This document shows positions 2,346 through 61,709 of a DNA stretch of 64,000 nucleotides, one piece after another; the stretch's first letter is position 1; the number at the start of each line of letters is the position of its first letter. The position numbers and the translations under genes were made by a program. The stretch lies in the NCBI GenBank assembly GCA_028281025.1, contig JANQKR010000013.1:124001-188000 (forward strand). Direction: 5' to 3'. Source of the DNA: Croceivirga sp. (GTDB lineage: Bacteria; Bacteroidota; Bacteroidia; Flavobacteriales; Flavobacteriaceae). The notes beneath the pieces were generated by a model. It was given only the letters and a program-made list of their open reading frames with translations, was not told the DNA's origin and did no database searches.

Positions 2346-3299
2346 CTACTCATTTTCCCCTGGTAGGCGATGTCTTTTAAAAAAATTCCAGATTTCGATG
2401 CTCGCATCAATATTTTGGTTGGTATGGCCAAGATTCCCAGAGATAAATTCAGCCCATTTCGGACATCCCGGCCAGGTGTGTCCCCCATTGATTATTTTGT
2501 AGAGAAGTACTTCTGCATCGTTGGTGTTGCTTGTATATCTTTCCCTGATGACGGTGGATATTGATTTTGAATTGGCATGGGCCAAAGTATCAACTTCAGG
2601 AACATCCAAAGTCTGGTTATGTTTTTTCCAGATTTCAATTTCATCGGATACACTTATAAACTCATTCACCGAAAGTGGACCTCCCCCATATTTTACAAAT
2701 TTATCCTCCGTTCCATGCATCATCAATACGGATATCGGTTTTGAATTGTTGCAAACGGGAGGAAATTCGGTGGTTCTTGTACATGATACGGGAGCAATCG
2801 CTGCAATTTTATCCTGTAAATCACATGCCAAGGCAATGCACATGGCCCCTCCATTGCTAAAACCAGTTACGTAAACCCTATTGGGGTCAATATGATATTC
2901 CGCTATCAATGTATCGATCATGCTTGCAATGAACTGAATATCATTATGATTCCCTTCTTTATAATAGGCGTTCCAGTAACTCTTATTTGAGGGAGCATAG
3001 GTCATGCCCTGTGGCAGGGCCATAATAAAACCTTCTTTATCCGCTATGCTTCTAAAATCAGCATAAAGCATTTGTTGCCAAGAATTGCCGCTATGGCCGT
3101 GCAGGTTTATTAAAAGTGGAACAGGTTCCTCGGTACTATGGTAGGATTTTGGTACGTAGAGTTTATAGGTTCTTACTTCCCCATCAAAATCGATACGTTC
3201 ATTCTTTGTGTTTTTCTGGATGCCCCTATAGACATAAACAATGCCGGCCAACAGTAAAAACAAGATACTTAAAACAATATGCATCAGTTTAAATTTCAT
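2346..3299 (-). CDS. Secreted or membrane-anchored esterase, polyhydroxybutyrate-depolymerase (LpqC) family
   Basis: 317 residues with one N-terminal membrane segment (about 6-26), so exported and probably anchored. The body is an alpha/beta hydrolase: LLINLHGHSG oxyanion region (about 62-71), nucleophile in VTGFSNGGAMC with Ser about 148, an Asp in MMHGTEDKFV, and a late His in INGGHTWPG. These are hallmarks of the PHB-depolymerase/feruloyl-esterase-like LpqC group. Members cleave ester bonds of polymers or acylated sugars; the substrate is unknown here. It is the last gene of a three-gene unit with a VOC protein and a metallo-beta-lactamase-fold enzyme, all exported. Confidence 0.8.
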   Translation of the reverse strand: MKFKLMHIVLSILFLLLAGIVYVYRGIQKNTKNERIDFDGEVRTYKLYVPKSYHSTEEPVPLLINLHGHSGNSWQQMLYADFRSIADKEGFIMALPQGMTYAPSNKSYWNAYYKEGNHNDIQFIASMIDTLIAEYHIDPNRVYVTGFSNGGAMCIALACDLQDKIAAIAPVSCTRTTEFPPVCNNSKPISVLMMHGTEDKFVKYGGGPLSVNEFISVSDEIEIWKKHNQTLDVPEVDTLAHANSKSISTVIRERYTSNTNDAEVLLYKIINGGHTWPGCPKWAEFISGNLGHTNQNIDASIEIWNFFKRHRLPGENE

Positions 3300-3326
3300 T
3301 GATTGCCTTTCGTCACTTTTCCTTAT

Positions 3327-3821
3327 TTAGTTCGGTGAGTGTAGGCCAATTCTATTTCCTTCCGTATCCAAAAACAACGCAAAGAAACCACTTTCATCTG
3401 CATGGGAGGTTTTGGGAACACTAATTTTTCCCCCGTTTTTTTCGACCTTATTGAGAATAACTTGAAGATCAGGTCCGCCATTAAGGTAAATGGTCACTCC
3501 ATTGGACGAAGGGCGGTATCCTTCCCCCTTAATGATAACCCCCGTGACCAATTGACCTTCGTATGGGAATATCCCCATTTCCATTTCCGGGACGGCCATT
3601 TGCTCAATTTTAATATCCAAAATGGTTTCATAAAAATGGACTGCTCGGGAAATGTTGGTTGCCGGAATTTCAAAAATGGAAATACGGCTTTCCATTCCAT
3701 GGGTTGTTTGCTTTTCGTTGGATCCCCCTTTTTGTGTTTCCCGGGGAGCCCCATTTTGGCCATAGCAAGTCGTAAAATGAAGTGCGAGTGTTGCTATGGC
3801 ATACAGAAGTATTCGTTTCAT
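3327..3821 (-). CDS. Exported VOC-fold (glyoxalase/bleomycin-resistance-like) protein
   Basis: 164 residues. A signal peptide (about 1-21, ending in a CYGQ-type site) precedes a single vicinal-oxygen-chelate module. The opening ISIFEIPATNISRAVHFYETIL is the typical first beta-alpha unit of the family, and the end LDTEGNRIGLHSP is the typical last strand with a metal-ligand Glu replaced by other polar residues. Most VOC proteins are cytosolic, so an exported copy is less usual. It lies 27 bases from the esterase start and 32 bases after the metallo-beta-lactamase-fold gene, suggesting one operon. Enzymatic activity is uncertain; it may be a binding protein. Confidence 0.75.
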   Translation of the reverse strand: MKRILLYAIATLALHFTTCYGQNGAPRETQKGGSNEKQTTHGMESRISIFEIPATNISRAVHFYETILDIKIEQMAVPEMEMGIFPYEGQLVTGVIIKGEGYRPSSNGVTIYLNGGPDLQVILNKVEKNGGKISVPKTSHADESGFFALFLDTEGNRIGLHSPN

Positions 3822-3853
3822 TTCTATTTTAAATTTGAATTTGCATTGTTTTG

Positions 3854-4771
3854 TTATTGGGTTAAAAGGCCATAGAGCATTGTTAGGTATTCTTCCGTGG
3901 TTTGTGCCCCCCCATTGCCCAAATCATCGTATTCCATAAGAACTTTATCCGCTATCATTTCTTCAAGGGACTTTTCGCTTTTGATGCCATTTTCAACAAT
4001 TTGGGTCGATTTTTTGAGCATATTTAAATATTCCCCCAACTCTTGCATGGTACTCACCCGTCCATGTCCCGGAACAACTTTACAATCCTTGGGAAAACGG
4101 GTTAAAATGTCTTCAAGGGACAGGATGAGCTGTTTTATATTTCCTCCACTACTTGTATACACTGCAGGAAACATCCCTTGAAAAAAAATATCCCCCAGAT
4201 GTAAAACCTTTGATTCCTTGAAAAAAACAACAACATCGTTGTCCGTATGACTATTCGGGTAATGAATCATTTCCACGGATTCCCCATTGAAATGAATTTC
4301 AAGATGGTCCGAAAAAGTGATTGTTGGGAGCAGGTCCAGAATTTGCGGTTTGGTACTGCTGTATGCCGCTAACCGCTCAAAGAGATTTTTATGCCCAATT
4401 ACTAGTGTACCTCCCTCTTTTAAGCTTTTATTTCCTTGAATATGGTCTCCATGAAAATGGGAATTTATGGCGATTTCAATTTTTTTATCGGTAATCTCTG
4501 CAATCGCTTTTTTTAGCTTCGGCATCATCCAATCATACATATTGTCCACAAGAAGGACTCCGTCCCCACCTATGGAAACGGTAACGTTCCCACCACCAAA
4601 ACCAAGTATCCCCTCCATAAAATAGATGGAATCCGCAATCTTTGATGTTTTGACCTCGACCGCCCGCCATTCTTGGGCCGAACCAAAAGTTATGGTTAAA
4701 AAGAATACGGTCAACGTAATTCGGGTTCCCTTGTCCAAAAAGAGCGGCCATTTTCGATTGCCTGATTTCAT
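3854..4771 (-). CDS. Exported metallo-beta-lactamase-fold hydrolase
   Basis: About 305 residues from the ATG at 4771; the frame stays open to 4825, but the upstream codons do not look like a signal peptide, whereas MKSGNRKW followed by a hydrophobic stretch ending in GSAQ does. The zinc motif HFHGDH is at about 105-110, with later ligands in PNSHTDNDVVVFF, LGDIFF and VPGHGR. The fold covers lactonases, quorum-quenching enzymes, glyoxalase II and beta-lactamases; this copy most resembles the broad periplasmic hydrolase group rather than a dedicated beta-lactamase. First gene of the exported-enzyme operon with the VOC protein and the esterase. Confidence 0.8.
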   Translation of the reverse strand: MKSGNRKWPLFLDKGTRITLTVFFLTITFGSAQEWRAVEVKTSKIADSIYFMEGILGFGGGNVTVSIGGDGVLLVDNMYDWMMPKLKKAIAEITDKKIEIAINSHFHGDHIQGNKSLKEGGTLVIGHKNLFERLAAYSSTKPQILDLLPTITFSDHLEIHFNGESVEMIHYPNSHTDNDVVVFFKESKVLHLGDIFFQGMFPAVYTSSGGNIKQLILSLEDILTRFPKDCKVVPGHGRVSTMQELGEYLNMLKKSTQIVENGIKSEKSLEEMIADKVLMEYDDLGNGGAQTTEEYLTMLYGLLTQ

Positions 4772-47401: not shown

Positions 47402-47439
47402 CCATTTTATACGCTACGCTAATCGCGCACCAGCGGGGC
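47402..47439. repeat. Dispersed repeat copy R1
   Basis: CCATTTTATACGCTACGCTAATCGCGCACCAGCGGGG; partial copy of the element also seen at 48015 and 48206. It lies between lepA and the ORF6N pseudogene. Confidence 0.6.
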
Positions 47440-47440
47440 A

Positions 47441-48009
47441 TTACTTCTTATACCCTATTTTGTTCCTTGGTTTGGGATTTTCCTTCCTCTCAATCAGCTC
47501 GTCCAAGTAGCTAAAGACGAGTTCGATGTTTTTGCTCTGGTTGGCCAATTTCTTCTTTCCCCTTCGATTTCAAGGCGCAGGTTCAGGTTGTCGGTGAGCA
47601 TTTCCCTAAGCTTGGTAAATATCCGCATGACCTGGATGTTGACGGCGATGGCCCTTTTGCTGTTCAACACACTTGATAGCATGAGTACGCCATGTTCCGT
47701 GAAGGCCATCGGGGCATACCGTATACCGCCCCAACTTGAGGTGCCAATTTGGCTCCTTCAATTTTGAAACTCCTCTTTATCAAGTTCAAACATAAAATCT
47801 TCGGGGAATCGGTCGATGTTCCTTCTCACCTGCCTTTTGAGTTGTTTGGTCTCCACTTGGTAAAGTTCAGCCAAATCCCTGTCCATCATGACCTTTTGAC
47901 CCCTGATGACGTAAATCTTACTGGTTATTGTTTCTTCTGTTATGGCTGGTTTATCGTTCACTCGATTGGCATAAAACCGTAAAATTAGGTTGAAACTTGG
48001 AGGTCCCAC
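47441..48009 (-). pseudogene. ORF6N-domain protein gene, disrupted
   Basis: Read on the minus strand the first part gives ITSKIYVIRGQKVMMDRDLAELYQVETKQLKRQVRRNIDRFPEDFMFELDKEEFQN, a clear ORF6N DNA-binding domain. A TGA at 47760-47758 interrupts it where the family normally has Leu. The same frame then continues [36 protein letters not shown]. Near 47572 the frame shifts: the expected continuation ([23 protein letters not shown]) lies in another frame and ends at 47441. One nonsense and one frameshift change therefore break the gene. The original start may have been GTG at 47961. ORF6N proteins are typical of phage and mobile regions. Confidence 0.85.
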
Positions 48010-48014
48010 GCTGC

Positions 48015-48119
48015 TGCCATTTTGGAACGCGATACGCTTCGTTAATCACGTACCAGCGGGGGTTATACCTCGGTAGTACACCCCTGTCCGCATTTGGCCG
48101 GTACCGTGGAGCGGGTTTA
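48015..48119. repeat. Dispersed repeat copy R2 with palindromic core
   Basis: Begins CCATTTTGGAACGCGATACG and runs through CACGTACCAGCGGGGG into a palindromic part CGGTAGTACACCCCTGTCCG ... CCGGTACCGTGG. The first half matches R1 and R3, the second half matches R4 at 50345. Probably the most complete copy in the window. Confidence 0.65.
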
Positions 48120-48205: not shown

Positions 48206-48246
48206 ATTTTGGAACACGATGCGCTAATCGCCTACCAACAGGGGGT
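48206..48246. repeat. Dispersed repeat copy R3
   Basis: CCATTTTGGAACACGATGCGCTAATCGCCTACCAACAGGGGG; matches the first half of R2. It lies about 55 bases beyond the reverse-transcriptase stop. Confidence 0.6.
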
Positions 48247-48299: not shown

Positions 48300-49154
48300 T
48301 CAAGTTTTTTTCTTGGAAGTCCTATACACTTGATCTTTGTAAGATTTCCTACCCAATATTTGAAGTTCACCCATGCTCTTTTCATCTTTATTCCTGAAAT
48401 CATCAGAAACCTTTAAAGTACTCAGGCCAGCTACTACCCCTGTTATTACAGATTTGTTTTTCCTGTAGGACGTTTTTCCCCTACTGATTTTAAATCCATT
48501 TTTTGTGATGGTTTGAATCATGCTGGGTATCAAATCATGAAAGTCATTTTTTGATGAAAATGTCAAATCATCAAACCAACGGGTGTAAATTATATCTTTT
48601 TCTTTGATTAATTCGAGAAGTTGCAAATCTGTCTTTTCAAATACAATATTTGCTAGCATTGGACTTGTTTTGGTTCCCTGTGGCAAAAATGTAATATCAG
48701 ACTCATTTTTTTTGAGGGTTGTTAGTTCCGCAATAATATTTGAAACCTGTTTTGAAAAGCCTTTTGACCTTAAAGCCCTAAATACCATGTCACGACTTAT
48801 TGATGGGAAAAAAGAAGTTATATCGGTCTGAAATCGATATATAGAACCTTTATGAAAATTGGCATTGCCAATTGAACTTTTCCTTTTTATTCCACCTTGA
48901 ATATTAGAAATTAAAGGGACTCTTGTTAGTATTTTAGTCTGTATTCTTCCTTGAAGGTTTTTAAGCTCTCCTCGACTGGGATTATAAACCCTTTTTTGAA
49001 CAATTCCATTTTTGACGATGGGCTTATTTGTGGTCTTATCTTTCTTGATTTGAGAATATTGGTAGTAGTAGCTAGAGTATTTTTCAATCACCGATTTTAG
49101 CTGATCCTTATCATATCCAAGGATTGCACATAAATCATTAATTGTTTTCACCAT
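48300..49154 (-). CDS. Retron-type reverse transcriptase
   Basis: 284 residues, small and without a maturase or endonuclease domain. RT core: YRFQTDITSFFPSISRDMVF (first catalytic Asp about 111), LPQGTKTSPMLANIVF (about 157-172), and the catalytic box TRWFDDLTFSS (Asp about 195 and 196). Retron-specific marks are present: region X NANFH (NAxxH, about 97-101) and region Y VITG (about 236-239; VTG in most retrons). The usual YxDD is WFDD. It should make msDNA from a structured RNA, probably the one predicted upstream at 49775-49969. The start overlaps the XRE gene by 17 bases, so the two are coupled. Confidence 0.92.
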   Translation of the reverse strand: MVKTINDLCAILGYDKDQLKSVIEKYSSYYYQYSQIKKDKTTNKPIVKNGIVQKRVYNPSRGELKNLQGRIQTKILTRVPLISNIQGGIKRKSSIGNANFHKGSIYRFQTDITSFFPSISRDMVFRALRSKGFSKQVSNIIAELTTLKKNESDITFLPQGTKTSPMLANIVFEKTDLQLLELIKEKDIIYTRWFDDLTFSSKNDFHDLIPSMIQTITKNGFKISRGKTSYRKNKSVITGVVAGLSTLKVSDDFRNKDEKSMGELQILGRKSYKDQVYRTSKKKT

Positions 49155-49455
49155 ATGGCTCAGGAAAAAATAACGAATTAACTAAATTGTTCAGTGATTC
49201 ACTAACAAGATTGTAAGCTTCCAGTTTAGCTTCGGGTATATCCGATTCATCAAGGGATTTAAAAAATAGTACAGGCAAAGGAATAGCAAGTACTTCGCTT
49301 AACCTCTTTAGTGTAGATAAGTTTGGCTCCTTTTTATTTCTCTCTATCATTGAAAGATAGACTTGGGTGATTTCGCAAGACTTTGCTAATTCACCCTGAC
49401 TAATACCCAGTTTTTTTCTTTGAAATTTTATTGCGTTTCCTAAATCCATAATCAT
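49138..49455 (-). CDS. XRE-family helix-turn-helix protein of the retron operon
   Basis: 105 residues. A classic HTH_3 domain spans about residues 3-62: LGNAIKFQRKKLGISQGELAKSCEITQVYLSMIERNKKEPNLSTLKRLSEVLAIPLPVLF. A 40-residue acidic, helical tail follows (SDIPEAKLEAYNLVSESLNNLVNSLFF). It lies between the 89-residue gene and the reverse transcriptase and overlaps the latter by 17 bases. HTH proteins are known as accessory partners of one group of retrons; whether this one is an autorepressor, an effector or both is unknown. The first ATG and one two codons later are both possible starts. Confidence 0.9.
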   Translation of the reverse strand: MIMDLGNAIKFQRKKLGISQGELAKSCEITQVYLSMIERNKKEPNLSTLKRLSEVLAIPLPVLFFKSLDESDIPEAKLEAYNLVSESLNNLVNSLFFPEPYGENN

Positions 49456-49477
49456 CTATAAATCAAAAGCGGGTCAA

Positions 49478-49747
49478 TTACAAGCTCGTCAAAAATTCGA
49501 GTACTTTTCTTAATTCAGCTATAACATCAGCACGCATAAACGTTCTAATTATTACTGGCAAAACGTCAGATAGAATTTCCTTCCTATCCGAATCTTCGGT
49601 TACTTCCTTCAATTCAATTAAAGCTACTTTTACATTCTCCAATCGAATTAAATCGTCAATTGACAAAGAACTGCGGTTCTTTGAGAGGACAACCTCAATT
49701 GCTTCAATGAGACTGTCAATTTTTAAAACAAATTCGTTTTTTTTCAT
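49478..49747 (-). CDS. Small helical protein of unknown function, first gene of the retron operon
   Basis: 89 residues, I recognise no family. The sequence is wholly helical in character with heptad-like Leu/Ile spacing (FVLKIDSLIEAIEVVL, IDDLIRLENVKVALIELKEV, VIAELRKVLEFLTSL), rich in Glu and Lys, and has no membrane segment or cysteine. It is followed 22 bases later by the XRE gene and preceded by 27 bases and the predicted structured RNA. It may be an effector, an antitoxin or a binding partner of the reverse transcriptase; nothing in the sequence decides. Confidence 0.75.
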   Translation of the reverse strand: MKKNEFVLKIDSLIEAIEVVLSKNRSSLSIDDLIRLENVKVALIELKEVTEDSDRKEILSDVLPVIIRTFMRADVIAELRKVLEFLTSL

Positions 49748-49774
49748 ACGGTTAATATTTAAAAATTAATAATA

Positions 49775-49969
49775 GATTAATATAGAATGGTGCCTAGCAC
49801 AATTCGTCCGCTTTCAATTTAGATAGGTAAAGAATAATTTATTATTCTTTTACCGTTAACCATAATCATAATAATTGTATGTGGCCAGAGCCTCAGTACC
49901 TAATGATCTGGCAAAATGGCGATAGGAAGCCGTGTAATCAAGTACACATTAATTCCATTCTTATTAATC
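49775..49969 (-). ncRNA. Candidate retron msr-msd RNA
   Basis: Read on the minus strand, GATTAATAAGAATGG at the 5' end is complementary to CCATTCTATATTAATC at the 3' end (7 + 7 pairs around a small internal loop), which fits the a1/a2 pair of retron RNAs. Inside lie three hairpins: GTGTA..TACAC near 49934-49950, GCCAGA..TCTGGC at 49883-49911, and a long one, GGTAAAAGAATAAT with ATTATTCTTTACC, at 49826-49854. It precedes the 89-residue, XRE and reverse-transcriptase genes on the same strand. The branching G and exact msd limits are not identified. Confidence 0.6.
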
Positions 49970-50439
49970 CCATGTATGAATTACTACTCTCAAAGAACTT
50001 ATGGGGCGAATATACAAAATATAACTCACAGTTAAAATACTTTCGATAATTTAATATTATTTAAACTGAGAAAATGGTTTAACTTTAAGAAAATCATCCC
50101 AAAACGCGCTTAAAACTTAACTAAGGTGGAATGAAGTCAATTGTCATGGCTCAAATAATTCTTATAAAATCTAAAAGAAATTTCTTTAGTTTAAGAACTA
50201 AACTATTACTATGATTAGTGCAATTAGTCGCAACCGAAAAAGTTACATGGATATTGATAGAAAGACCTAAAGGTTTCATTTTCCCGCTACAAAGTAACTT
50301 GGCAGTTTCGTCTTATTGTTATCAAAACTTTCAAAACGGTTAAGCCGCAGTAGTGCAACCCTGTCCTCATGTGACAGGTACTGCGGAGCTGGTATTAGGT
50401 ACAATATAAAACACCAATATTGACAAACTTAGTCTCATG
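49970..50439. other. AT-rich intergenic region upstream of the retron RNA
   Basis: About 470 bases, strongly AT-rich. It should contain the retron promoter. The only clear structure is the palindromic repeat R4 at 50345-50386. A 27-codon frame at 50131-50214 is too short and plain to support. Confidence 0.5.
50345..50386. repeat. Dispersed repeat copy R4, nested palindrome
   Basis: CCGCAGTA, seven bases, CCTGTC, seven bases, GACAGG, TACTGCGG: an 8-base outer and 6-base inner stem with one bulge. The same order with changes occurs in R2 at 48071-48119, so the two halves of the retron region are flanked by related sequence. Confidence 0.7.
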
Positions 50440-51348: not shown

Positions 51349-52017
51349 TTAATGTAACATAAAGCTATACGCTATTTCTTTGAACAATTGCTCGTACACT
51401 GAGACATCTTTTCTCCCCGTAAAAAATGACATTATATATATTCCTCCATTGGTCTTTACCACATATTGTTCTATATAAATCTCTTTGTTCTTGATATTCA
51501 AAAGCTGTTTTATAACGTGACCCTTCATATTGTTAATTTCCACATCTTTCGAATTCAATAGTTGATACTCGTCCGCATTTGTTTCGTTTTCTAAAACCAA
51601 TTTTTTAACCGCGCTATCCAGTTCATTTTTCTGATTATCTGACAAGATTATATTTCCATTAGCGTGAGAAGAAGACTCGTATACAAATAATAATAGTGGA
51701 TTATCACTTGTGTTAATCTTATGAGCCCAATCTTTGGGAATATTAATCTTAAATCCATTTGAATCCAGAATATCCCAAAATATGTTTTTGGTGGAATTAT
51801 AGGTAATATCTTTATATTCCCATCTTCCTTTTTTTAATCCCTCATCATAACTGCCTTTAGCTATTAGTTCATTTGAGCTGTAATAGCTCCATTCGCCAAT
51901 TCTTTTATTATTATCTGATATTTTGCCTTTTGACATCACACCGTCTGACTTATCATTTTTACATGATAGGCATAATATTATTAAAAACAGTAATAAAGAG
52001 TTCTTAATCATCTTCAT
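51349..52017 (-). CDS. Lipoprotein encoded at the end of the RHS gene, possible immunity protein
   Basis: About 222 residues from the ATG at 52017, the start of a leader ending in lipobox LIILCLSC. Residues about 25-60 hold MORN/YwqK-type repeats (GKISDNNKRIGEWSYYSSNELIAKGSYDEGLKKGRWEYKD). The rest is a mixed alpha/beta domain with a long KSYFSG-like acidic stretch and the end GGIYIMSFFTGRKDVSVYEQLFKEIAYSF, resembling PsbP/MOG1-like folds. The start overlaps the RHS stop by 14 bases, so the genes are coupled. A protective role against the RHS tail domain is plausible by analogy with toxin/immunity pairs. Confidence 0.72.
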   Translation of the reverse strand: MKMIKNSLLLFLIILCLSCKNDKSDGVMSKGKISDNNKRIGEWSYYSSNELIAKGSYDEGLKKGRWEYKDITYNSTKNIFWDILDSNGFKINIPKDWAHKINTSDNPLLLFVYESSSHANGNIILSDNQKNELDSAVKKLVLENETNADEYQLLNSKDVEINNMKGHVIKQLLNIKNKEIYIEQYVVKTNGGIYIMSFFTGRKDVSVYEQLFKEIAYSFMLH

Positions 52018-55000
52018 TGTCTTTCTTTTGCTTGGCCTCAATGCCAATAAAAATGTCTATTCCAACAAAATGTGCACCATCAAAACCGATACCAAACCTT
52101 TGAATATTTGTTTGTGTTTTATCCCCTCCTATAGTTTTGTTTTCTCGACCAGCTTCAGCGGAAAAAACAGATATACTTCCACCACCATTAAACTCAGTTG
52201 TCTTTTCTGTTACTTGCGTCCCACCTTCACCAAAATTCACAGTTTCTGTTGCTTCTGCCTCAAATCCTACGCCTCCAGTCTTTGGAGAACCTATATTTCT
52301 GGAAACACCATGACTAATCTTAACATTTCCATCATCTCCTATTAAAGTTGTTCCTGAAGTATCTTCAATGCCTTCGGTTGATAATTTGGAACCAACTTTA
52401 GTAGAAAGCAACTCGGCAGAAGCGACGTTGTTCTTCATCCCTACATTTTTGTTTACCTGTGCGCTAGCTTGCAACCCCAAAGTAACTTTCAACTCTGCTT
52501 TGCCCTCTATAGTTGTGTTTTTAAGATTATCTATTACTTGGGCAGCTTTTTTACCAAAACCAGCTATTACTCTTCTAGCATTGTCAATTTTTGACTTAAC
52601 TGTTCTAATCTTTTGTCTAGCTTTTTTAAAAAATTTGAAAGGGTCAACGGGCATCATCCCATCTGGATCAATAAAGAACACCGGGTTATCAAACGCATAG
52701 TTATACGGTGAGTGCCTTCTCATCTGTTCCGCCAAGGGGTCAAGGTTCATCCACCTACCGAGTGCAGGGTCATAATTCCTTGCACCAAAGTCATAGGTAT
52801 TTAGGTCATGACCCTCATCAAACTCCTTACCCCCAAACGTCCAACGTTGGGCCACACTATTCCCCAATGAACTTACATTACTATTGTACCCTTTATGTTT
52901 AAGCCCAAAGGGGTAGTAGTTGTTCTCCTCAATAATCGTAGGCGTGCCGGGACTGCTTGGGTCATCCGTATAGGACAGCCTTACATTCCCCAAATGGTCC
53001 CTATATTGGTAAACATAATCATAGCCCCCACTGGTATTGGGCATCACATAGCCCTCCGGGTGGGAGAAGAACTGTAGGGCATTATTTTCATAGATGTAAT
53101 TGCCCGCATAATCGGTCGTGGTCGAAACACCGTTGCTGTAGGTCATTTTCTTTAACTTCGTTCCAAGGGCATCGTAAATATAGGTAATCTTTTTAGTACT
53201 GCTGTTGTCAAACTTTACCTCTGTGGGCAGGTTCAAATGGTTATAGCTTATCCCGTCCACACTGGCCGTCCCAATGCCCTTGTTGAGGTCACGGACCATA
53301 TTGCCGTTGTCATCGTACCAATAGTCATTCCCGGCCTTGTTGCCATCATTGAACCCCTCCGTTTTCCAGGCCGATGTTGAAGCATCCGTTACCTTTGTCA
53401 GTTGGTTTCCGGTATAGTCATAGGAAAGATTGTCCATATTGGTAGCGCTGTTATGGGCCCCTGCCCTACCGTTCCTCATCAAGTTGAGGATGTTGCCGTT
53501 TTTGTCATAGGCCATTCCCCAGATGCTATAGTGGAATTCATTGGTCAGCCCTGTCCCTGAAAGGTTCAGCCCGCTTGTGATCCTGTTCAGGGCATCATAA
53601 CCGTACCTGTACGCTTTTGGGCCGTTGTCAACATTTGCCGTCCGCCATTCGGTCTCTGCTATGTTGCCATTGTACAAAGCCGTTGCCCCATGTTGTGGGT
53701 CGTTATAGTTGATCTTAAAGCCAAAGAGGTCGTCGCCCAAACTGGAGGGATTGTTGATCCGTGTAAGCCACCCACGGACATTATAAGCATAGTCCACGTC
53801 CTGTAGGCCCCCGCCTACCTCTTTGCTTATCAATTGGCCCAGATCATCGTAGTGGTTCTCCACAATGGTCTCGGTATGCGAACCTATGGTCTGTTGCTGT
53901 TTCAGCAACCGACCCCTATGGTCATAGCTAAAATCGTCGGTGGTGACCAGCGCCGCATTGGTCCCCCTGGTATGGGAGGCCTTGGTCTGTACCACTCTGC
54001 CCGTAAAATCCAGTTTGCTCGTAACGATATCCGTGGTCCCCAGGTAACCGTTCACACTTTTTACATAGATGGAACGTCCCTTTTCGTCATAACCCATGAC
54101 CGTTGTTGTCCATTTCGCCGGGCTACTGCCCAACACCTTTACCTTGGTCCCCGTTGCCAAGCCCTTGGTCAGCTTTTGGGTACTTGCCGAGTTGTCATGG
54201 TTGATGACCGTTGCCCCCTCCACGGTGGATGGCATGGCCGTAAAGCCATCAAAGGTGTAATTGTCATAGTAGTTGATCGTCAATAGTTCGATAATATTGA
54301 CCCTGGGGTAGGCCGCGTTGTTATAATAAACCGATGTACCATCCACCGTTGTTGGAGATGATGTCTTGGTTTCATATAGCGTAGTTTCTGCATTGACCGC
54401 ATTTTGAAACGCCACCCTATTGCTATTGGAGCTCATTTTACCGGTGTAAACTATCCTGCCAAAGGCATCGTACTTGGTGAACAACCATTGGCCCAGGGCC
54501 TTGAGGTTCGGATCCCGGGTCATGATGGGTTGGTCCAGTTGGTTATATACAATGTATTCCCAGCCCTTGCCCGGAAGCTTCCTTTCCACCAGGCGGTTGC
54601 GGTGGTCGTACACATATTGGTAGCACAGTTCGCTCAGCTCCGTGGCACTTATTCCATCACCGGTCACCACCTTGGGTGGGAGGGTATAGGTCAGGTTTCC
54701 AAAATCGTCGTACACATAGTAGGTGTCGTGGGCCGTTTCGGTGCTCCCGATCAGGGCGTAGGTGCGCTTTAGGATTACGCGGCCCTGTTTGTCCGTGAAC
54801 TCCTCCGTGCTGTGCAGTTTTGAGGTCGAAGCGTGGTTTTCATCATAGGTGGTGGTCCTATAAAGCGCTCCGGCGGCATAGTGGCCATCTGAGACCAGCG
54901 TGGGCGTATAAGTGTTGTTGGCCACGGTGGTGGTGACCTTGTACTTCCGTACCTCGTTGGTCCCGTTCGTACCATGACCAAATTCCACTTCATGTCCCCC

Positions 55001-58000
55001 GCCCATACGCCAATCGTATCCGGGGGCGGCCTGTTTCAGTATCCGGGCCAGGGGCGAGGCCTCAAAGGCCCTTTCCGAAAAGGGGTTGGGCGTTGCCGAT
55101 ACCATATCGTCCGGATAATTGGCCACATAATAGCTATCGGTATCCGTTTCCGCCGTGCTTCGGAAACTGCCAAAGCTGCCCGGGGCTGCGCTGTAGGGAA
55201 GCCACTCTTTGGTCCGGCGCCCATGGGCGTCATAACCGATATGGGTGACCAGATCTTTGAGTTCCCCAGTGTGTGCGGTCCCGGCGATGATGTCCCCGAG
55301 GGCATCCTCGGTACCGTCCAGTTTCTGGAGCACGGGTTGGTGGAAGTACTGCCGTACCCCCACATCGGTGGCATAGTAGAGGTAGCTCCGAAACCTGGCT
55401 GTGGTGGTCGTGGATCTCCAGACATATTCGGTACCGTCGAGCACCTTGTTGCCCTCCAGGTCATAGACCCCGCTCACCCCACTGTCGCCACCGGAATGGC
55501 CCACCGGGTGTACGATGCCCACCATAAGGTACCAGGTGTCCAATTGGGGCAGGTCCCCGTACCAGAAATAGGGATTGCCGTTGGCAGACCCATTGAGGTT
55601 GTTCACGTTCTGGGTGCCATGGTAGGTAAGGCCGTCCTGGGAATGGGTGCGTTTTACCCAGACCGTATACCGGTAGGCCGCGTTTTTGTCCACGGCAAAG
55701 TAATCGGTGTTCCAGCCACCGTCAGCGTTGCTCTGGCCGTCATTGCCACATTCCCAGAGCAGGGACAGGGCCCCATGGGGATCCGAACCGTTGACCCTTT
55801 GGTTCTCCACGGTGCTGCCGTTCTGGTTGAAGAAGGGGGTGCCGCCGCTTCCTACCGTCCAGTCCATGGACCATCCGGGCACATTGGAGGTATAATCAAG
55901 TTTTTGGGGCTCCCTCCCCGACGCCTTGACGGCCACCTGCTGCCTGCCACGGCCCAGTCCATCAAAGTAGGTGACCTGCTCGACCACGTCAGTGTTCAGA
56001 CTTATGGGGTCGCTTCCCTTTAAAGGGTTTTGGTAGGTCCGGGTATGGATATAATTTTCATTGCTTTTGGCCACCGGGGCATAGAGCCCGGAACCCGGAG
56101 GGGGATCCGTCGTCCCAAAATAACCGCCCACCACGGAAACGTTCCTGTCGTCCCCGTTCTCCACATAACCCGTGGGCCGGGAACAGGCCCGTGTGCTGTT
56201 GGTCGGGTCGCCAAAGCCGTCCCCATCGGTATCGGCATACCAGACCGCCCCTTTGTTGATGGTATAGTCGATCCTCAGTGCCGTCCCCCAACAGGAGCCA
56301 CTATTGCTCTTTGCCCTGAGGTAGTATACCGTACCACTGGTTCGGGTAATGGAACCACTGGAATTTGATGTGCTTGTTGCGGATGCGCTGTCCTGCCAGT
56401 ACCAGGTCTCGCCGGAGGGTACCGTGCCCATGGTAAGTACCGTTCCCCCACAATTGTGGACCGTGGGGGCCAGGGTCGGGGTCGATACCGCCTCGGTGTA
56501 CTTGGTCTCCCCAAAGGATATGGCCCTCCTGCGGTACCATGTTGAAGTGGTCAAGGCTCCGGGATTGTATGAGGTGGTGGTGGCCCCACTGATATTGGAG
56601 AATCCCGATGTTGCCCCCGTCGTGGACCGTTGCCACTGGTAGGCATAGCTGCCATTGCCCCCACTGGCCGGGGCACCGTTCCCCAGAATGCTTGGGCTCC
56701 CGCCATGGCAGATGGTGTCCGTGCCATTGATACTGCCGGGCAGTAGGGCCGGCAAAACGGTAATCTTAACGCTCGGGCTGTACCTGGTCTGTCCGCAGGA
56801 GATCACACCCCTGCGGTACCACCGTGTGGCCGTTTGGTTGCCCGGAGGGTTGTAGCTGCTTATCGTGGCGCCGCTGATATTGACCCAGGAGCTGTTGTTC
56901 GACGATATTTGCCATTGGTAACTGTACCCGCCCAACCCGTTCGAGGGCGAAGTTGCGTTGCCCAGGGTGGACGGGTCCCCACCATAACGGACCGTGTCCG
57001 TGCCATTGATACTGCCGGGCAATAGGGCCGGCAAAACGGTGATCTTAACGCTCGGGCTGTACCTGGTCTGTCCGCAGGAGATCACACCCCTGCGGTACCA
57101 CCGTGTGGCCGTTTGGTTACCAGGGGGGGTGTAGGTGCTTAACGTCGCACCGCTGATATTGCCCCAGGAGCTGTTGTTCGACGATATTTGCCACTGGTAA
57201 CTGTACCCCCCCAACCCGTTCGAGGGCGAAGTTGCGTTGCCCAGGGTGGACGGGTCACCACCGTAACAGACCGTGTCCGTGCCATTGATACTGCCCGCAG
57301 TTAGGGGCGGCAGGACGGTCACCTTAACGCTCGCGCTGTACTTGGTCTGTCCGCAGGAGATCACCCGCCTGCGGTACCACCGCGTGGCCGTTTGGTTACC
57401 AGGGGGGGTGTAGGTGCTTAGCGTCGCACCGCTGATATTGCCCCAGGAACCGTTGCTCGACAGTACCTGCCACTGGTAGGCGTACCCCCCAATTCCGTTC
57501 GAGGGCGGGGCACCGTTGCCCAGGGTAACCGGATCGCCCCCGTGACATACGGTCTGGGTACCGGTGATGCTGCCCGCCGTCAAGGGGGGCTTCACCAGGA
57601 CCCTTACCGGGGCCGTATATTTTGTCTGGATGCCAGAGACCACCCGCCTACGGTACCATCGTGTGGCGGTGCGACCGCCAGGGGGGGTATAGGAGGTGCC
57701 CGTGGCACCACTGATGTTGAGCCAGCCACTGCTGCCGTTGCTGGAATACTGCCATTGATAGCTATAGGTTCCCGTACCGTTGGTGGCCAGGGCCGTACTG
57801 CGCAGGGTACCGGCATTGTTATTGTAACATAGGGTCTGTGCCCCACTGATGCGACCCGGATCCAGGGCATGGACCACTGTAATGCGCAGCCCCGTGAATT
57901 CATAGGTGCCCCCACTGCTGAAACTTGCCCTTAAAAAGACCGTGCCCACAGTATTAAAACTTAATCGGATGCTCTGGTTCCCCGAACTGCTTATCGTGCT

Positions 58001-58228
58001 GCCGGAAGGGGTGATCCACGAAGTATTGCTGATTGTTCCCGTATGGTTCAGGTAATACGTATAGGTGACCCCCTGGGTTACCCTTGTCTGGCCACTGATG
58101 GTCTGGGCCCCCAGCTGTTGGGGAAGGTTCATGGCAATAAGGACCAGGGCCAACGGCCCCATTCTTGCACAGGCCCATTTTACAAAATGGCCCATGGCCC
58201 GTGATTGTAGTTGAAACGGTTCTTTCAT
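52004..58228 (-). CDS. Giant exported RHS-repeat protein with Ig-like array
   Basis: 2074 residues. A signal peptide region (ending near QLGAQ, about 42) is followed by PKD/Ig-like modules (about 45-600), including near-identical 93-residue repeats with Cys pairs and YQWQ..S.....W.NISGAT. A DxDGDG calcium-type motif (YADTDGDGFGD, about 665) follows. A DUF6443-like start and many YD/RHS repeats occupy about 700-1730, then the RHS core with LGNVRLSYTDD and NYDPALGRWMNLDPLAEQMRRHSPYNYAFDNPVFFIDPDG (to about 1857). The last 217 residues are a unique tail with beta-rich, Gly-rich sequence, unlike known nuclease tails. Partner of the next upstream gene. Confidence 0.9.
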   Translation of the reverse strand: MKEPFQLQSRAMGHFVKWACARMGPLALVLIAMNLPQQLGAQTISGQTRVTQGVTYTYYLNHTGTISNTSWITPSGSTISSSGNQSIRLSFNTVGTVFLRASFSSGGTYEFTGLRITVVHALDPGRISGAQTLCYNNNAGTLRSTALATNGTGTYSYQWQYSSNGSSGWLNISGATGTSYTPPGGRTATRWYRRRVVSGIQTKYTAPVRVLVKPPLTAGSITGTQTVCHGGDPVTLGNGAPPSNGIGGYAYQWQVLSSNGSWGNISGATLSTYTPPGNQTATRWYRRRVISCGQTKYSASVKVTVLPPLTAGSINGTDTVCYGGDPSTLGNATSPSNGLGGYSYQWQISSNNSSWGNISGATLSTYTPPGNQTATRWYRRGVISCGQTRYSPSVKITVLPALLPGSINGTDTVRYGGDPSTLGNATSPSNGLGGYSYQWQISSNNSSWVNISGATISSYNPPGNQTATRWYRRGVISCGQTRYSPSVKITVLPALLPGSINGTDTICHGGSPSILGNGAPASGGNGSYAYQWQRSTTGATSGFSNISGATTTSYNPGALTTSTWYRRRAISFGETKYTEAVSTPTLAPTVHNCGGTVLTMGTVPSGETWYWQDSASATSTSNSSGSITRTSGTVYYLRAKSNSGSCWGTALRIDYTINKGAVWYADTDGDGFGDPTNSTRACSRPTGYVENGDDRNVSVVGGYFGTTDPPPGSGLYAPVAKSNENYIHTRTYQNPLKGSDPISLNTDVVEQVTYFDGLGRGRQQVAVKASGREPQKLDYTSNVPGWSMDWTVGSGGTPFFNQNGSTVENQRVNGSDPHGALSLLWECGNDGQSNADGGWNTDYFAVDKNAAYRYTVWVKRTHSQDGLTYHGTQNVNNLNGSANGNPYFWYGDLPQLDTWYLMVGIVHPVGHSGGDSGVSGVYDLEGNKVLDGTEYVWRSTTTTARFRSYLYYATDVGVRQYFHQPVLQKLDGTEDALGDIIAGTAHTGELKDLVTHIGYDAHGRRTKEWLPYSAAPGSFGSFRSTAETDTDSYYVANYPDDMVSATPNPFSERAFEASPLARILKQAAPGYDWRMGGGHEVEFGHGTNGTNEVRKYKVTTTVANNTYTPTLVSDGHYAAGALYRTTTYDENHASTSKLHSTEEFTDKQGRVILKRTYALIGSTETAHDTYYVYDDFGNLTYTLPPKVVTGDGISATELSELCYQYVYDHRNRLVERKLPGKGWEYIVYNQLDQPIMTRDPNLKALGQWLFTKYDAFGRIVYTGKMSSNSNRVAFQNAVNAETTLYETKTSSPTTVDGTSVYYNNAAYPRVNIIELLTINYYDNYTFDGFTAMPSTVEGATVINHDNSASTQKLTKGLATGTKVKVLGSSPAKWTTTVMGYDEKGRSIYVKSVNGYLGTTDIVTSKLDFTGRVVQTKASHTRGTNAALVTTDDFSYDHRGRLLKQQQTIGSHTETIVENHYDDLGQLISKEVGGGLQDVDYAYNVRGWLTRINNPSSLGDDLFGFKINYNDPQHGATALYNGNIAETEWRTANVDNGPKAYRYGYDALNRITSGLNLSGTGLTNEFHYSIWGMAYDKNGNILNLMRNGRAGAHNSATNMDNLSYDYTGNQLTKVTDASTSAWKTEGFNDGNKAGNDYWYDDNGNMVRDLNKGIGTASVDGISYNHLNLPTEVKFDNSSTKKITYIYDALGTKLKKMTYSNGVSTTTDYAGNYIYENNALQFFSHPEGYVMPNTSGGYDYVYQYRDHLGNVRLSYTDDPSSPGTPTIIEENNYYPFGLKHKGYNSNVSSLGNSVAQRWTFGGKEFDEGHDLNTYDFGARNYDPALGRWMNLDPLAEQMRRHSPYNYAFDNPVFFIDPDGMMPVDPFKFFKKARQKIRTVKSKIDNARRVIAGFGKKAAQVIDNLKNTTIEGKAELKVTLGLQASAQVNKNVGMKNNVASAELLSTKVGSKLSTEGIEDTSGTTLIGDDGNVKISHGVSRNIGSPKTGGVGFEAEATETVNFGEGGTQVTEKTTEFNGGGSISVFSAEAGRENKTIGGDKTQTNIQRFGIGFDGAHFVGIDIFIGIEAKQKKDNEDD
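56715..57551 (-). repeat. Three 279-bp tandem repeats inside the RHS gene
   Basis: Units at 56715-56993, 56994-57272 and 57273-57551, each 93 codons, very similar in DNA. More diverged copies flank them on both sides (about 56430-56714 and 57552-57840). One unit has Arg (CGT type) where the others have Cys in TVCYGG. The register fits one Ig-like domain per unit. Confidence 0.9.
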
Positions 58229-58307: not shown

Positions 58308-61300
58308 TCAGTTTTTGTAATGGTACTGGTACTGTTCGATCATATGCCCTGCGGCATCCTTAATATGTTCCAATCTATTGAAGTTGTCATAGGCGTATCC
58401 GGTGGTGTACCCCCTTGGATCGGTCCTACTAAGGATGCCCACCAGTGGTAGGTAATCGAAGGTGGTGATCCTGGCACCTGAAAGGCTGCTCCTGAGCAGG
58501 CCCTCCTGGGTTGGCGTCAGTCCCTGCAGCCCGGCATGGAAGTCGTTCCCCAAAAGGTTTTCTATCTGTGTCCGGGTCGCATTCTCTATTTTGGCCACGG
58601 GATAGGTCCGGTTATGGCCCCAGATGTAGGAAATGGGCATGCCCCCGGCCCTGGAAACCTCCAGGGGATTGCCGACATCGTCGTAATCCGAATAGACCAA
58701 CCTGTTCTCTAGACTGCCATTGTTTTTGGAGGTCTGTATATTTTCCGGCCAGACCAGGTTGCCCGTCCAGTTTTTGAAGTTCGTCCGGGTGGTCATTTTG
58801 GACAGTTGTGTTCCCGTTTTACTTTCGGTGATCACTTCCACCTGGACCGGTTGGTTGGGCCTTGCGGAGGTCAATAATCCCAATGCCGTGAAAGCCGTGG
58901 AGGACAGACAGGATAGGGAACTTCGGTTGGAGGGATAATATGTTTTGGTCCTGATGGTCTTTTCATCACTGGTTTCTTGTACGGATTCGCCCACCTGGTA
59001 ATGGTTGGCGTAATCGTAGCCGTATGTGGTCTTGTTGGTGATCACCGAGCTTCCATCGTAGGTCCTTTCTTCCGTGGAATGCAGATCCAAGGTCCCCCCG
59101 GTCAGGTAAAAGGTCTTAAATTCATTGTATTCGTCTGCGTCGTTGAGCGTGCCGTCCTGGTCCGCAAAGATGATGAAGGACGCCACGTACCGGCTTCGGG
59201 TCGCTTCGTAAACTTCACCGTAATTTGCGTTAACGGACAATGGGGGGTTCATCAGATAAGCTGGGGAACCCACAACATTGCCGTAGCGATACTCGTTCTT
59301 GATTTCCTTCAGCAGGGTGTACCCCTTGGTATCCTTTCTAAAAAACTTGGTGTCCAAAGGTTTCCCCCTTAACCACTCATTATCGGTGGCCAGGTGGTAC
59401 GGGAATTTATAAAAGTCCCCAGAGTCCCCGAAAATAGTGAAACGGTGTTCGGTCTTTCCTTGTCTTCCAGTTTCCCCTACCTCGTATTCAGTAACATATT
59501 CATAGCCTTCATGGTTTCCCTGTTCATAGGTCAGAGGGCTGCCGGGACGTGCGCCATACTTCCTCCTAAGGATGATCGGGCCCGGCCCTTGGTCCTCCTG
59601 ATAATAATAGCTTGGCAATGAAAACACCCTTCCACTGCCAACGCCCGTGACGGGGTCCTTATATTCGTACTCCTTTTTTATGGTACCGCCATTGCCATCC
59701 TCCAATAGGATACTCTTGATCCTATTTCCCGAGGTAAAAAGCAGTTCGGTACCGCTGGTCCGATTGCTTATGTTCTCTTTCCAGGATACGAGAATATCGA
59801 ATGGGTTGGTTAAAATATCGTTGTGGTTGTGGGGTATCTTGGGATTCGGGTCGACCCTAAGTACATAAGTGCCCGATGAAAGGGTCATGTCCACTCGCTC
59901 ATTGCTCAGGGTCACATCGGTCTGGGGACCTATCAACCGTGCCTTATAGGGGCAGGTGACCGTTGCCTGATGGGTCCCGCAATCGCTTTCCAGCCCTAGC
60001 CTGGCGGTAACCTGTGCCGCACCAACGATATTCCCGATGGTAAAAGGTTCCGATTCATAGAACGTTTTGTTAAAGCGCGAGGGATGCTTGGCCAGCCCTG
60101 CACCTTTTGTTACCGTGGGATTGGTGTCCGGAAACAAAAGGTCCTTAAAATATTGGGGGGGTACGGCCCGGTTATGTTCATAGGTATAGTTTATGGACCC
60201 CCCTGTGGGCAGTTGTATCTTTGTGAGCATCCCTGCCTGGGATTTTAGGGTATCAACTTCGCGATTAATGGTTGTTGTTCCGTAATCGAAAAATGTCAGG
60301 TACTGCCCATTGTTCTTTCCATTGTAGTATCCCCAGGTGTCCTGGGCGTTGGAAAAACGATGGGGCAGTGCTGTACTGTTGTAGAAAAACCGATAGGGGG
60401 GCAAGGTGGCCGTACCCTGTTTGGCATAAGTCTCCACCGAACTCAGGAAAAGGCGCTTGTGGGCCCGTAGGTCACAGTTGTCCAAGGCGGGCAGGACATT
60501 GGTCGAATTGGCCGAAACATAGGTATGGTTCAGTTTAAGGCGCTTGACCAGTACATTGTTGAAATCGGTCAGCTGTATCTCTTCCAGCGCGTAGGCATCG
60601 TCAAGATCCTCCCTTTCCGTGGTCCCGCTTACAAATTTGATCTTGCCCCGATCGCACAGGATTTCGGAGATTTGGTGTTGGACCGGTTTCACTTTCGAGA
60701 AATGGGCGCTCACGGCCTTTGTGCCAAAATCCACCTTATCGTAACTTCTCCTGCAATATATGGGTTGCTCACTGCCATATTTGAAGGTTATGGACCTACC
60801 GCTCGGCCCGGTTATATCCATAAGGTACCAGGCCGTATACGCATTAAAGGAACCACTGCCCGGAGCAGGGGTAAGCGAACCGCCAAAAAAAGTTAGGTTT
60901 TGCAAGATGTTTTCTTTGTCCCTTGCCGTTCGTAAAGCATCTTTGGACAGCCCAAAATGGAGCTTGAACCCATCTGGGGTCACCACTTCCCAACCGGATA
61001 TTTCGCCCACCGTTCCATTGGCCCAGACCGGGCTTATCTCGAGATCGGTAAAATGCTGGATGATGGGCAGCTTGGTACGCTGGTCAAAGATGAATTTTCC
61101 GGAATACCCCAAAAAGTTGAACATGAAACTATCCGGATAAAGATCTTGTTCGCCTAACTGGACACTGTCATATATTCTGGACCGTGTTGTAGCATCCCCA
61201 GTAAAAAAAGTCTGGTAAAAATTGTCCCTGAGGTAGCCTTTGACCCCATTGGGGATATACTCATCCGCAGAACCCCTGATCTGCCTGGTAATGGCCCCAC

Positions 61301-61580
61301 CGAAATCCATGGCCCACCCCAGGCCCACCCGCGAGGCGATTTCCTCCACCTGGATGCCCTTGGCATGGTACCTTAGGACAATGGGTATGGTCTTGCCATC
61401 CAGTTCCAGGGTATGGATGGGAACGGTAATGCTCGGAGTCCCATTGTAATGGGACACGGGCACATCAACATATTTGGCCAGCGCGGTGGCTTCCGGTGAC
61501 GGCGGAATGATTTCGGGCAAATCCTGTGCCCGACCAATGGTCATGGCAAGGAGGGCAAGTAGGCTACATGTTCTTTTCAT
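58308..61580 (-). CDS. Exported RHS-type partner protein
   Basis: About 1090 residues from the ATG at 61580, which opens a clear signal peptide (MKRTCSLLALLAMTIGRAQ); the open frame upstream has no leader character. The N-terminal part (YVDVPVSHYNGTPSITVPIHTLELDGKTIPIVLRYHAKGIQVEEIASRVGLGWAMDFGGAITRQIRG) is the SpvB/TcdB-like opening found before RHS proteins in Bacteroidota. The C-terminus has YD repeats, ending GYTTGYAYDNFNRLEHIKDAAGHMIEQYQYHY. It lacks the RHS core DPLG-type end, so it may work with the downstream 2074-residue protein, 79 bases away on the same strand, as a split shell. Confidence 0.85.
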   Translation of the reverse strand: MKRTCSLLALLAMTIGRAQDLPEIIPPSPEATALAKYVDVPVSHYNGTPSITVPIHTLELDGKTIPIVLRYHAKGIQVEEIASRVGLGWAMDFGGAITRQIRGSADEYIPNGVKGYLRDNFYQTFFTGDATTRSRIYDSVQLGEQDLYPDSFMFNFLGYSGKFIFDQRTKLPIIQHFTDLEISPVWANGTVGEISGWEVVTPDGFKLHFGLSKDALRTARDKENILQNLTFFGGSLTPAPGSGSFNAYTAWYLMDITGPSGRSITFKYGSEQPIYCRRSYDKVDFGTKAVSAHFSKVKPVQHQISEILCDRGKIKFVSGTTEREDLDDAYALEEIQLTDFNNVLVKRLKLNHTYVSANSTNVLPALDNCDLRAHKRLFLSSVETYAKQGTATLPPYRFFYNSTALPHRFSNAQDTWGYYNGKNNGQYLTFFDYGTTTINREVDTLKSQAGMLTKIQLPTGGSINYTYEHNRAVPPQYFKDLLFPDTNPTVTKGAGLAKHPSRFNKTFYESEPFTIGNIVGAAQVTARLGLESDCGTHQATVTCPYKARLIGPQTDVTLSNERVDMTLSSGTYVLRVDPNPKIPHNHNDILTNPFDILVSWKENISNRTSGTELLFTSGNRIKSILLEDGNGGTIKKEYEYKDPVTGVGSGRVFSLPSYYYQEDQGPGPIILRRKYGARPGSPLTYEQGNHEGYEYVTEYEVGETGRQGKTEHRFTIFGDSGDFYKFPYHLATDNEWLRGKPLDTKFFRKDTKGYTLLKEIKNEYRYGNVVGSPAYLMNPPLSVNANYGEVYEATRSRYVASFIIFADQDGTLNDADEYNEFKTFYLTGGTLDLHSTEERTYDGSSVITNKTTYGYDYANHYQVGESVQETSDEKTIRTKTYYPSNRSSLSCLSSTAFTALGLLTSARPNQPVQVEVITESKTGTQLSKMTTRTNFKNWTGNLVWPENIQTSKNNGSLENRLVYSDYDDVGNPLEVSRAGGMPISYIWGHNRTYPVAKIENATRTQIENLLGNDFHAGLQGLTPTQEGLLRSSLSGARITTFDYLPLVGILSRTDPRGYTTGYAYDNFNRLEHIKDAAGHMIEQYQYHYKN

Positions 61581-61709
61581 TGAAGATACGTATTTATGGT
61601 CATGGCTTTTTTGAAAAGGGGAGGTTTTGGGGAGGGTAACGATGCCCTCGCTATGGGATAAGATGTATTGGCACCGGCCTTCCCCAATGGTTTTGTCCAT
61701 GGTTTTCCA

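Follow-up and report, generated by a model that had tools for sequence, protein, structure and literature searches.

A divergent, complete-looking type VI retron in a genome of Croceivirga sp. (Flavobacteriaceae)

Type VI retrons are described, in the accessible part of PMC8541194, as units of a reverse transcriptase (RT), a DNA-binding gene and a small auxiliary gene. The same part of that paper records units of this kind from P2-like and Mu-like phages and calls for experiments. A search of the open-licence literature, judged mostly from titles and the beginnings of abstracts and with subscription papers mostly outside it, yielded no functional study of a type VI retron. The type is a catalogued kind of retron that is functionally little-explored. 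It is reportedly a class of Mestre et al. 2020, said to be coded in PADLOC-DB as RT_VI, HTH_VI and SP_VI. Statements made here on the class rest on these PADLOC names and on the accessible part of PMC8541194.

A further point of comparison is the type IX retron Kva2. According to the part of PMC13405049 that is accessible, its winged-helix protein makes contact with the msdDNA, and mimicry by a phage HTH protein sets the system off. Kva2 and the locus described here are alike, as far as that source goes, in having, beside an RT and an ncRNA, two partner proteins of which one binds DNA. They differ in the nature of these partners: Kva2 has an HEPN RNase and a winged-helix protein, whereas in the present locus one is an XRE protein and the other a helical one.

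Three genes of the type VI class

The window, that is, the whole stretch of 64,000 nucleotides that was analysed (contig JANQKR010000013.1 of assembly GCA_028281025.1, positions 124,001 to 188,000), comes from a source genome of 5.1 Mb. On its minus strand, read 5' to 3', lie a leader of 251 nt and the genes of a small protein (SP), an XRE-family protein and an RT (Table 1). The same three reading frames had been proposed in an initial annotation of the sequence, and all of them are confirmed. They had also been described as overlapping. This is true of the XRE and RT genes, which share 17 nt (49138-49154), but not of the 89-aa gene and the XRE gene, between which there is a gap of 22 nt.

Table 1. 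Positions in the window of the three genes and of the leader elements
Feature	Position	Strand	Evidence
SP_VI, small helical protein, 89 aa	49478..49747	-	PADLOC SP_VI 9.5e-10; four predicted helices, pLDDT 83.7
HTH_VI, XRE-family HTH protein, 105 aa (likely start 49449)	49138..49455	-	PADLOC HTH_VI 3.7e-26; Pfam HTH_3 3.3e-15
RT_VI, retron reverse transcriptase, 284 aa	48300..49154	-	PADLOC RT_VI 3.8e-64; Ec86 RT 6.6e-20; tree
Promoter-like box TATATTCG	50007..50014	-	TAnnTTYG upstream of the motif across leaders
Conserved leader motif GTTCTTTGA	49990..49998	-	exact in 58/62 type VI leaders
Leader with putative msr-msd template RNA	49748..49998	-	predicted fold; comparison with L134
Arm a1, closing stem	49955..49969	-	15 bp with one bulge to a2
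Arm a2, closing stem	49775..49790	-	pairs with a1
msr-like hairpin 1, GTGTA/TACAC	49932..49947	-	predicted fold; same stem in L134, L067, L077, L098
msr-like hairpin 2, GGC/GCC	49918..49931	-	predicted fold; GGTT/AACC in L134
AU-rich hairpin, candidate msd stem (DNA template; inferred role)	49826..49854	-	predicted fold
Possible hairpin GTGC/GCAC, just 5' of a2	49790..49800	-	by eye; GTGT/ACAC in L134

All three proteins are assigned to type VI by the PADLOC profiles, their order is that of 62 of the 69 type VI loci compared below, and a structured RNA lies upstream. The locus is a type VI retron that looks complete and belongs to a divergent clade, and thus a member of a known defence-associated family, not a new system.

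The RT scores 214.7 bits against RT_VI, a profile that also recognizes 35 of the 35 relatives' RTs submitted to it. The runner-up, RT_III-A, stands 62 bits lower (152.5), and RT_IX gives 128 bits compared with 215 for RT_VI. A type III or type IX retron (PRTase plus WH, or HEPN plus WH) was considered and rejected on the lower scores of these RT profiles and on the match of the partner genes to HTH_VI and SP_VI. Both retron signatures noticed in the initial annotation are present, namely N97-A98-x-x-H101 and T238-G239; we take NAxxH and VTG, the names used there, to be the customary ones. Alignment of 69 RTs, including that of the window, shows N, H, T and G in all 69 and A in 66. RVT_1 is the sole Pfam match of this RT.

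The effector and the RNA of retron Ec86 differ from those of the window. Its RT (7v9u/7v9x) is the closest solved RT by sequence and can be aligned with that of the window over residues 54-242 (6.6e-20).

The catalytic box, which includes D195-D196, reads W-F-D-D, with both aspartates kept. It had been singled out as unusual, and the phenylalanine directly before DD is indeed found in the window alone (1/69 RTs). On the other hand, the tryptophan at the first xxDD place is present in three of the 69 (the window, L039 and L042) and in L134 too. Judged by sequence, the WFDD box is a minor variant.

The 89-aa protein matches SP_VI with 36.7 bits, as do all 44 of the SP sequences scanned with this profile. 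The gene had been regarded as an extra and potentially new component. Because of the profile match it is instead a listed component of type VI, and its product can be identified, at the level of profiles, as the small protein already known from this type of retron. No Pfam model above cut-off and no NCBIfam model matches it. A fold search with the predicted four-helix structure returned 222 matches at E<=10 and none at E<=0.001, profiles of solved structures gave nothing better than 0.2, and a recognised active site is absent. Homology of SP with the HTH protein, an idea suggested by SinI and SinR, was examined and rejected, since hhalign assigns it a probability of 1.1% and finds no shared helix.

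The XRE protein scores 89.2 bits against HTH_VI, and Pfam reports related HTH models besides HTH_3. Its start is probably at 49449 (M3) rather than at 49455, since M3 is invariant in 36 sequences. The predicted structure (pLDDT 88.6) has six helices in all and comprises an XRE domain followed by a C-terminal helix of 22 residues. Among solved structures, C.BclI and SinR are the best relatives of HTH_VI. Columns of the HTH alignment have a mean identity of 64%, those of the SP alignment one of 42%.

Relatives and genomic setting

Relatives were collected by a scan of genome contigs with two peptide patterns, from which the best 80 of 157 were kept, and by further searches of 395 genomes of the order, 395 of the phylum, 397 of the family and 60 relatives of G984. 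Loci were counted as type VI if the RT reached E<1e-60 with a profile built from eight RTs of the family. This cut admitted 69 of 121 loci and left 52 aside; the 69 include the window, one Chryseobacterium piscicola contig counted twice (L003, L061) and the near copies L004/L066 and L040/L073. Sixty-two of the 69, the window among them, have their genes in the order SP-HTH-RT, and in 58 of these 62 operons the HTH and RT genes overlap. Loci with this order are mostly from Bacteroidota. Both small genes pointed out in the initial annotation are therefore a shared property of most homologous loci (62/69), and the same holds for the leader motif (58/62).

The other seven loci lie outside the SP-HTH-RT set. 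L062 is truncated by a contig end, L070 has an SP-like frame that the ORF rule overlooked, and in L101 neither SP nor HTH was found. It may also be mentioned that the 4.2-kb contig with L070, a Bacteroidota-like type VI unit, was assigned by binning to Desulfobulbaceae, where misbinning or transfer is possible. In three of the 69 loci (L002, L041 and L078) an RT_VI-like RT is preceded by GTTCTTTGA and the profile finds no HTH; these are possible reduced variants. L097 (positions 3141-4340, Neomarinimicrobiota) encodes a 399-aa RT frame with a long N-terminal extension, a weak SP-like match before it and no HTH match, possibly an HTH-RT fusion.

The nearest relative found is L134, whose genome belongs to the family of the window and whose RT is 55% identical. 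A search for closer relatives near that genome matched the genome itself only (1/60). In a midpoint-rooted RT tree of 83 loci found here, which contains neither named reference retrons nor L134, the window groups with L042 (Bacteroidales) and L039 (a plasmid of Aureispira) with support 100/96, among SP-HTH-RT loci. Tree and RT_VI profile together uphold the initial placement of the RT among retron RTs, within the limits of a tree of this composition.

Related units are also found on plasmids (L041, which lacks an HTH match, among them) and, more distantly, in phages. P2_2H1 and MuM16-1, putative type VI units in the accessible part of PMC8541194, match RT_VI and HTH_VI, and their HTH gene overlaps the RT gene. 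Their RTs are about 27-29% identical to that of the window. Unlike the window, the P2_2H1 unit has a first gene without an SP_VI match.

Two genomes of the same genus contain no RT match at E<=1e-30, and blastn aligns the 20-kb stretches around their lepA genes to the window over lepA only. This indicates that the unit is not common to those two genomes. A search for a fourth shared gene, covering frames of at least 60 aa within 2.5 kb on flanks that are often shorter, gave no family in at least five of the 62 neighbourhoods; a recombinase family occurs in 4/62 only.

Several other features of the neighbourhood were recorded. Just past the RT gene, on the minus strand at 47494-48009, an ORF6N-domain gene is apparently split in two frames, of which 47758-48009 matches ORF6N in Pfam (2.7e-24) and 47494-47709 has no Pfam match. 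Three copies of a 30-nt repeat lie between lepA and the RT gene (47409-47438, 48032-48061 and 48214-48243), the second and third sharing 87% and 77% identity with the first. Also on the minus strand are two adjacent, very large frames, 52004-58228 and 58308-61700, the second with an RHS repeat and the first RHS-like by eye.

The leader and its putative template RNA

The leader begins with GTTCTTTGA, exact copies of which were found 207-505 nt 5' of the SP start in the 58 motif-bearing loci. The 168,674 nt that follow the RTs on their downstream side, used as control, hold two exact copies. The motif resembles what we take to be a boxA antitermination signal, an assignment that is putative; a literature search for a boxA-like leader motif, judged by title and abstract, gave nothing on point. 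TAnnTTYG occurs within 24 nt ahead of the motif in 55 of the 58 leaders, compared with 1.6% of 20,000 random 24-mers from the same loci. In the window this box is TATATTCG, presumably a -7 element of the Bacteroidota type. The 52 RT loci that were set aside, an imperfect control for the promoter as they include non-Bacteroidota loci, carry the motif upstream in two cases and promoter plus motif in none. In the genome of the window the combination of promoter and GTTCTTTGA occurs once, at the retron.

Retron RNAs are found in PADLOC by covariance models, according to the accessible part of its description. Rfam 15, run on the window at gathering score, does not match the leader and reports one tRNA only. 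With 12 relatives it gave one sub-threshold match to a molybdenum riboswitch, judged to be chance, and nothing convincing.

The initial annotation had described a closed, hairpin-rich segment upstream of the genes. The bulged 15-bp helix formed by a1 and a2 stands behind this description, since none of 400 dinucleotide shuffles reached it; other tests on the single sequence are weak. Folding of 49778-49972 is mildly stable (z -1.82, with 6 of 200 shuffles as good). Uninterrupted Watson-Crick pairing of the arms extends over 8 bp only, a length that 421 of 2000 mononucleotide shuffles attain as well. RNAduplex gives z -1.1, 10 of 100 shuffles being as good. As for the ungapped arm score of the window, 25 of 39 foreign a2 regions and, likewise, 27 of 39 foreign a1 regions do as well as the native arm. 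Over 40 leaders, this ungapped comparison places the native a2 above all foreign ones in 11 and in the best 5% in 16. The possible hairpin just 5' of a2 was not seen formed in the minimum-energy fold.

The a1 and a2 of L134 form a perfect 17-bp helix, reached by none of 2000 shuffles, in a sequence unlike that of the window. Arms and hairpins are thus kept with altered letters, and paired changes can be seen in a1 and in the second hairpin; these were read by eye and not tool-counted, as the MAFFT alignment of window and L134 puts hairpin 1 and a2 out of register. The case for the arms of the window is made by the bulged helix together with L134 and other relatives.

RNAalifold, applied to 23 leaders of the main branch of the family, predicts a long-range a1/a2 stem with hairpins 3' of a1. 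This alignment (A7) holds 23 of 32 leaders, chosen by length and core motif, and describes the main branch and not the clade of the window. Over 18 named pairs, 95.7% of the cells are paired and 12 pairs show two-sided change, including 8 of 8 pairs in the a1/a2 stem. None of 500 shuffles reached any of five pairing measures. It must be noted that the structure came from the same alignment, so that the slide control favours it by construction, and that related sequences can also beat shuffles; the count of distinct two-sided changes is therefore the better evidence.

Two further observations concern the main branch. A short direct repeat, in two copies ending in GCAGG, lies around or after the leader core in L004, L048, L058, L063, L065, L067, L072 and others; the letters that precede the copies seem, by eye, to co-vary between loci. 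Main-branch leaders also have, by eye, a hairpin just 5' of SP. Neither was seen in the window.

A covariance model of the 5' leaders (R1), built from the leaders of 31 relatives and containing 3 base pairs only, matches 9 of its 31 sources at E<=0.01. It misses the window, L134, L042 and L039. These four loci thus differ from the rest of the class both in their WxDD box and in leaders that escape a model of the other leaders. Since the model of its relatives misses it, the RNA of the window is a divergent form, and the leader is best described as the predicted, divergent but structured RNA of a retron. The initial view of the locus as an HTH-linked, retron-class RT with a structured RNA upstream agrees with the HTH_VI and RT_VI profiles and with the conserved leader.

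How the unit may work

The best explanation of the whole is that the locus is the type VI retron of a Flavobacteriales bacterium, an msDNA-controlled tripartite unit with a silenced effector. We hold this to be reasonably probable. The RT would bind the msr part of the leader RNA, use a G close to the end of a1 for priming and copy the variable central part of the RNA as msDNA. A complex of RT, msDNA and XRE protein would then hold the effector silent. An infecting phage would disturb the msDNA or its protein and so free the effector, upon which growth of the cell would stop. A role in anti-phage defence may reasonably be proposed by analogy with the retron family.

The weakest step of this model is the division of labour between the two small proteins, in which the XRE protein would be the msDNA reader and SP the more likely effector or effector switch. 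The XRE protein is proposed as reader on account of its higher conservation compared with SP, and the contact of the Kva2 winged-helix protein with msdDNA would, by analogy, make it the natural candidate. As no other shared gene was found, it is likely that SP or HTH carries the effect; SP is weakly favoured. The effector gene may also be located elsewhere.

An alternative model, which we consider rather unlikely, assumes that the unit is a transcription switch. The XRE protein would repress its own leader promoter or other genes, SP would be an antirepressor and the msDNA stem a decoy operator, so that any effect on phage would come about by regulation and not by a toxin. SinI is such an antirepressor, acting with SinR. 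That C.BclI and SinR are the best solved relatives of HTH_VI is in keeping with this model, as are the long C-terminal helix of the HTH protein and the position of the small, helical SP just 5' of HTH; by arrangement, a SinI/SinR-like pair is possible. However, the profile comparison of SP with HTH detects no shared helix, and no operator was identified.

That the copy has decayed or is no longer active, with its odd WFDD box and its divergent RNA as signs of a retron losing its function, is improbable. Such a reading could draw on the phenylalanine before DD, on the failure of the family model to detect the leader and on the split ORF6N gene just past the RT. Against it, the three frames are open, the catalytic aspartates, NAxxH and TG are all present, the tryptophan is common to L039, L042 and L134, and the arms of the RNA, though unlike in sequence, pair in the window as well as in L134. 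The notion that the RT is of a different defence kind (group II-like, DRT or Abi) and stands beside unrelated genes is already largely refuted and has hardly any probability left, since the weak matches of the RT to group II, Drt3a and Drt2 models attain at most 43.3 bits compared with the RT_VI score, and gene order and leader are conserved.

The locus is a compact three-gene unit in which it is directly testable which small protein is the effector. Its conserved leader, with promoter box, GTTCTTTGA, a1/a2 and two hairpins, gives exact sites for a search for msDNA. More speculatively, type VI retrons, and this divergent clade especially, might be sensors made of two proteins, with no enzyme as effector. 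The XRE protein would read the msDNA stem like an operator, SP would be the entire killing or switching device, and the leader RNA would be made from a dedicated promoter with an antitermination-like signal. We regard this as unlikely. If true, it would mean a retron that acts as an msDNA-controlled transcription or toxin switch.
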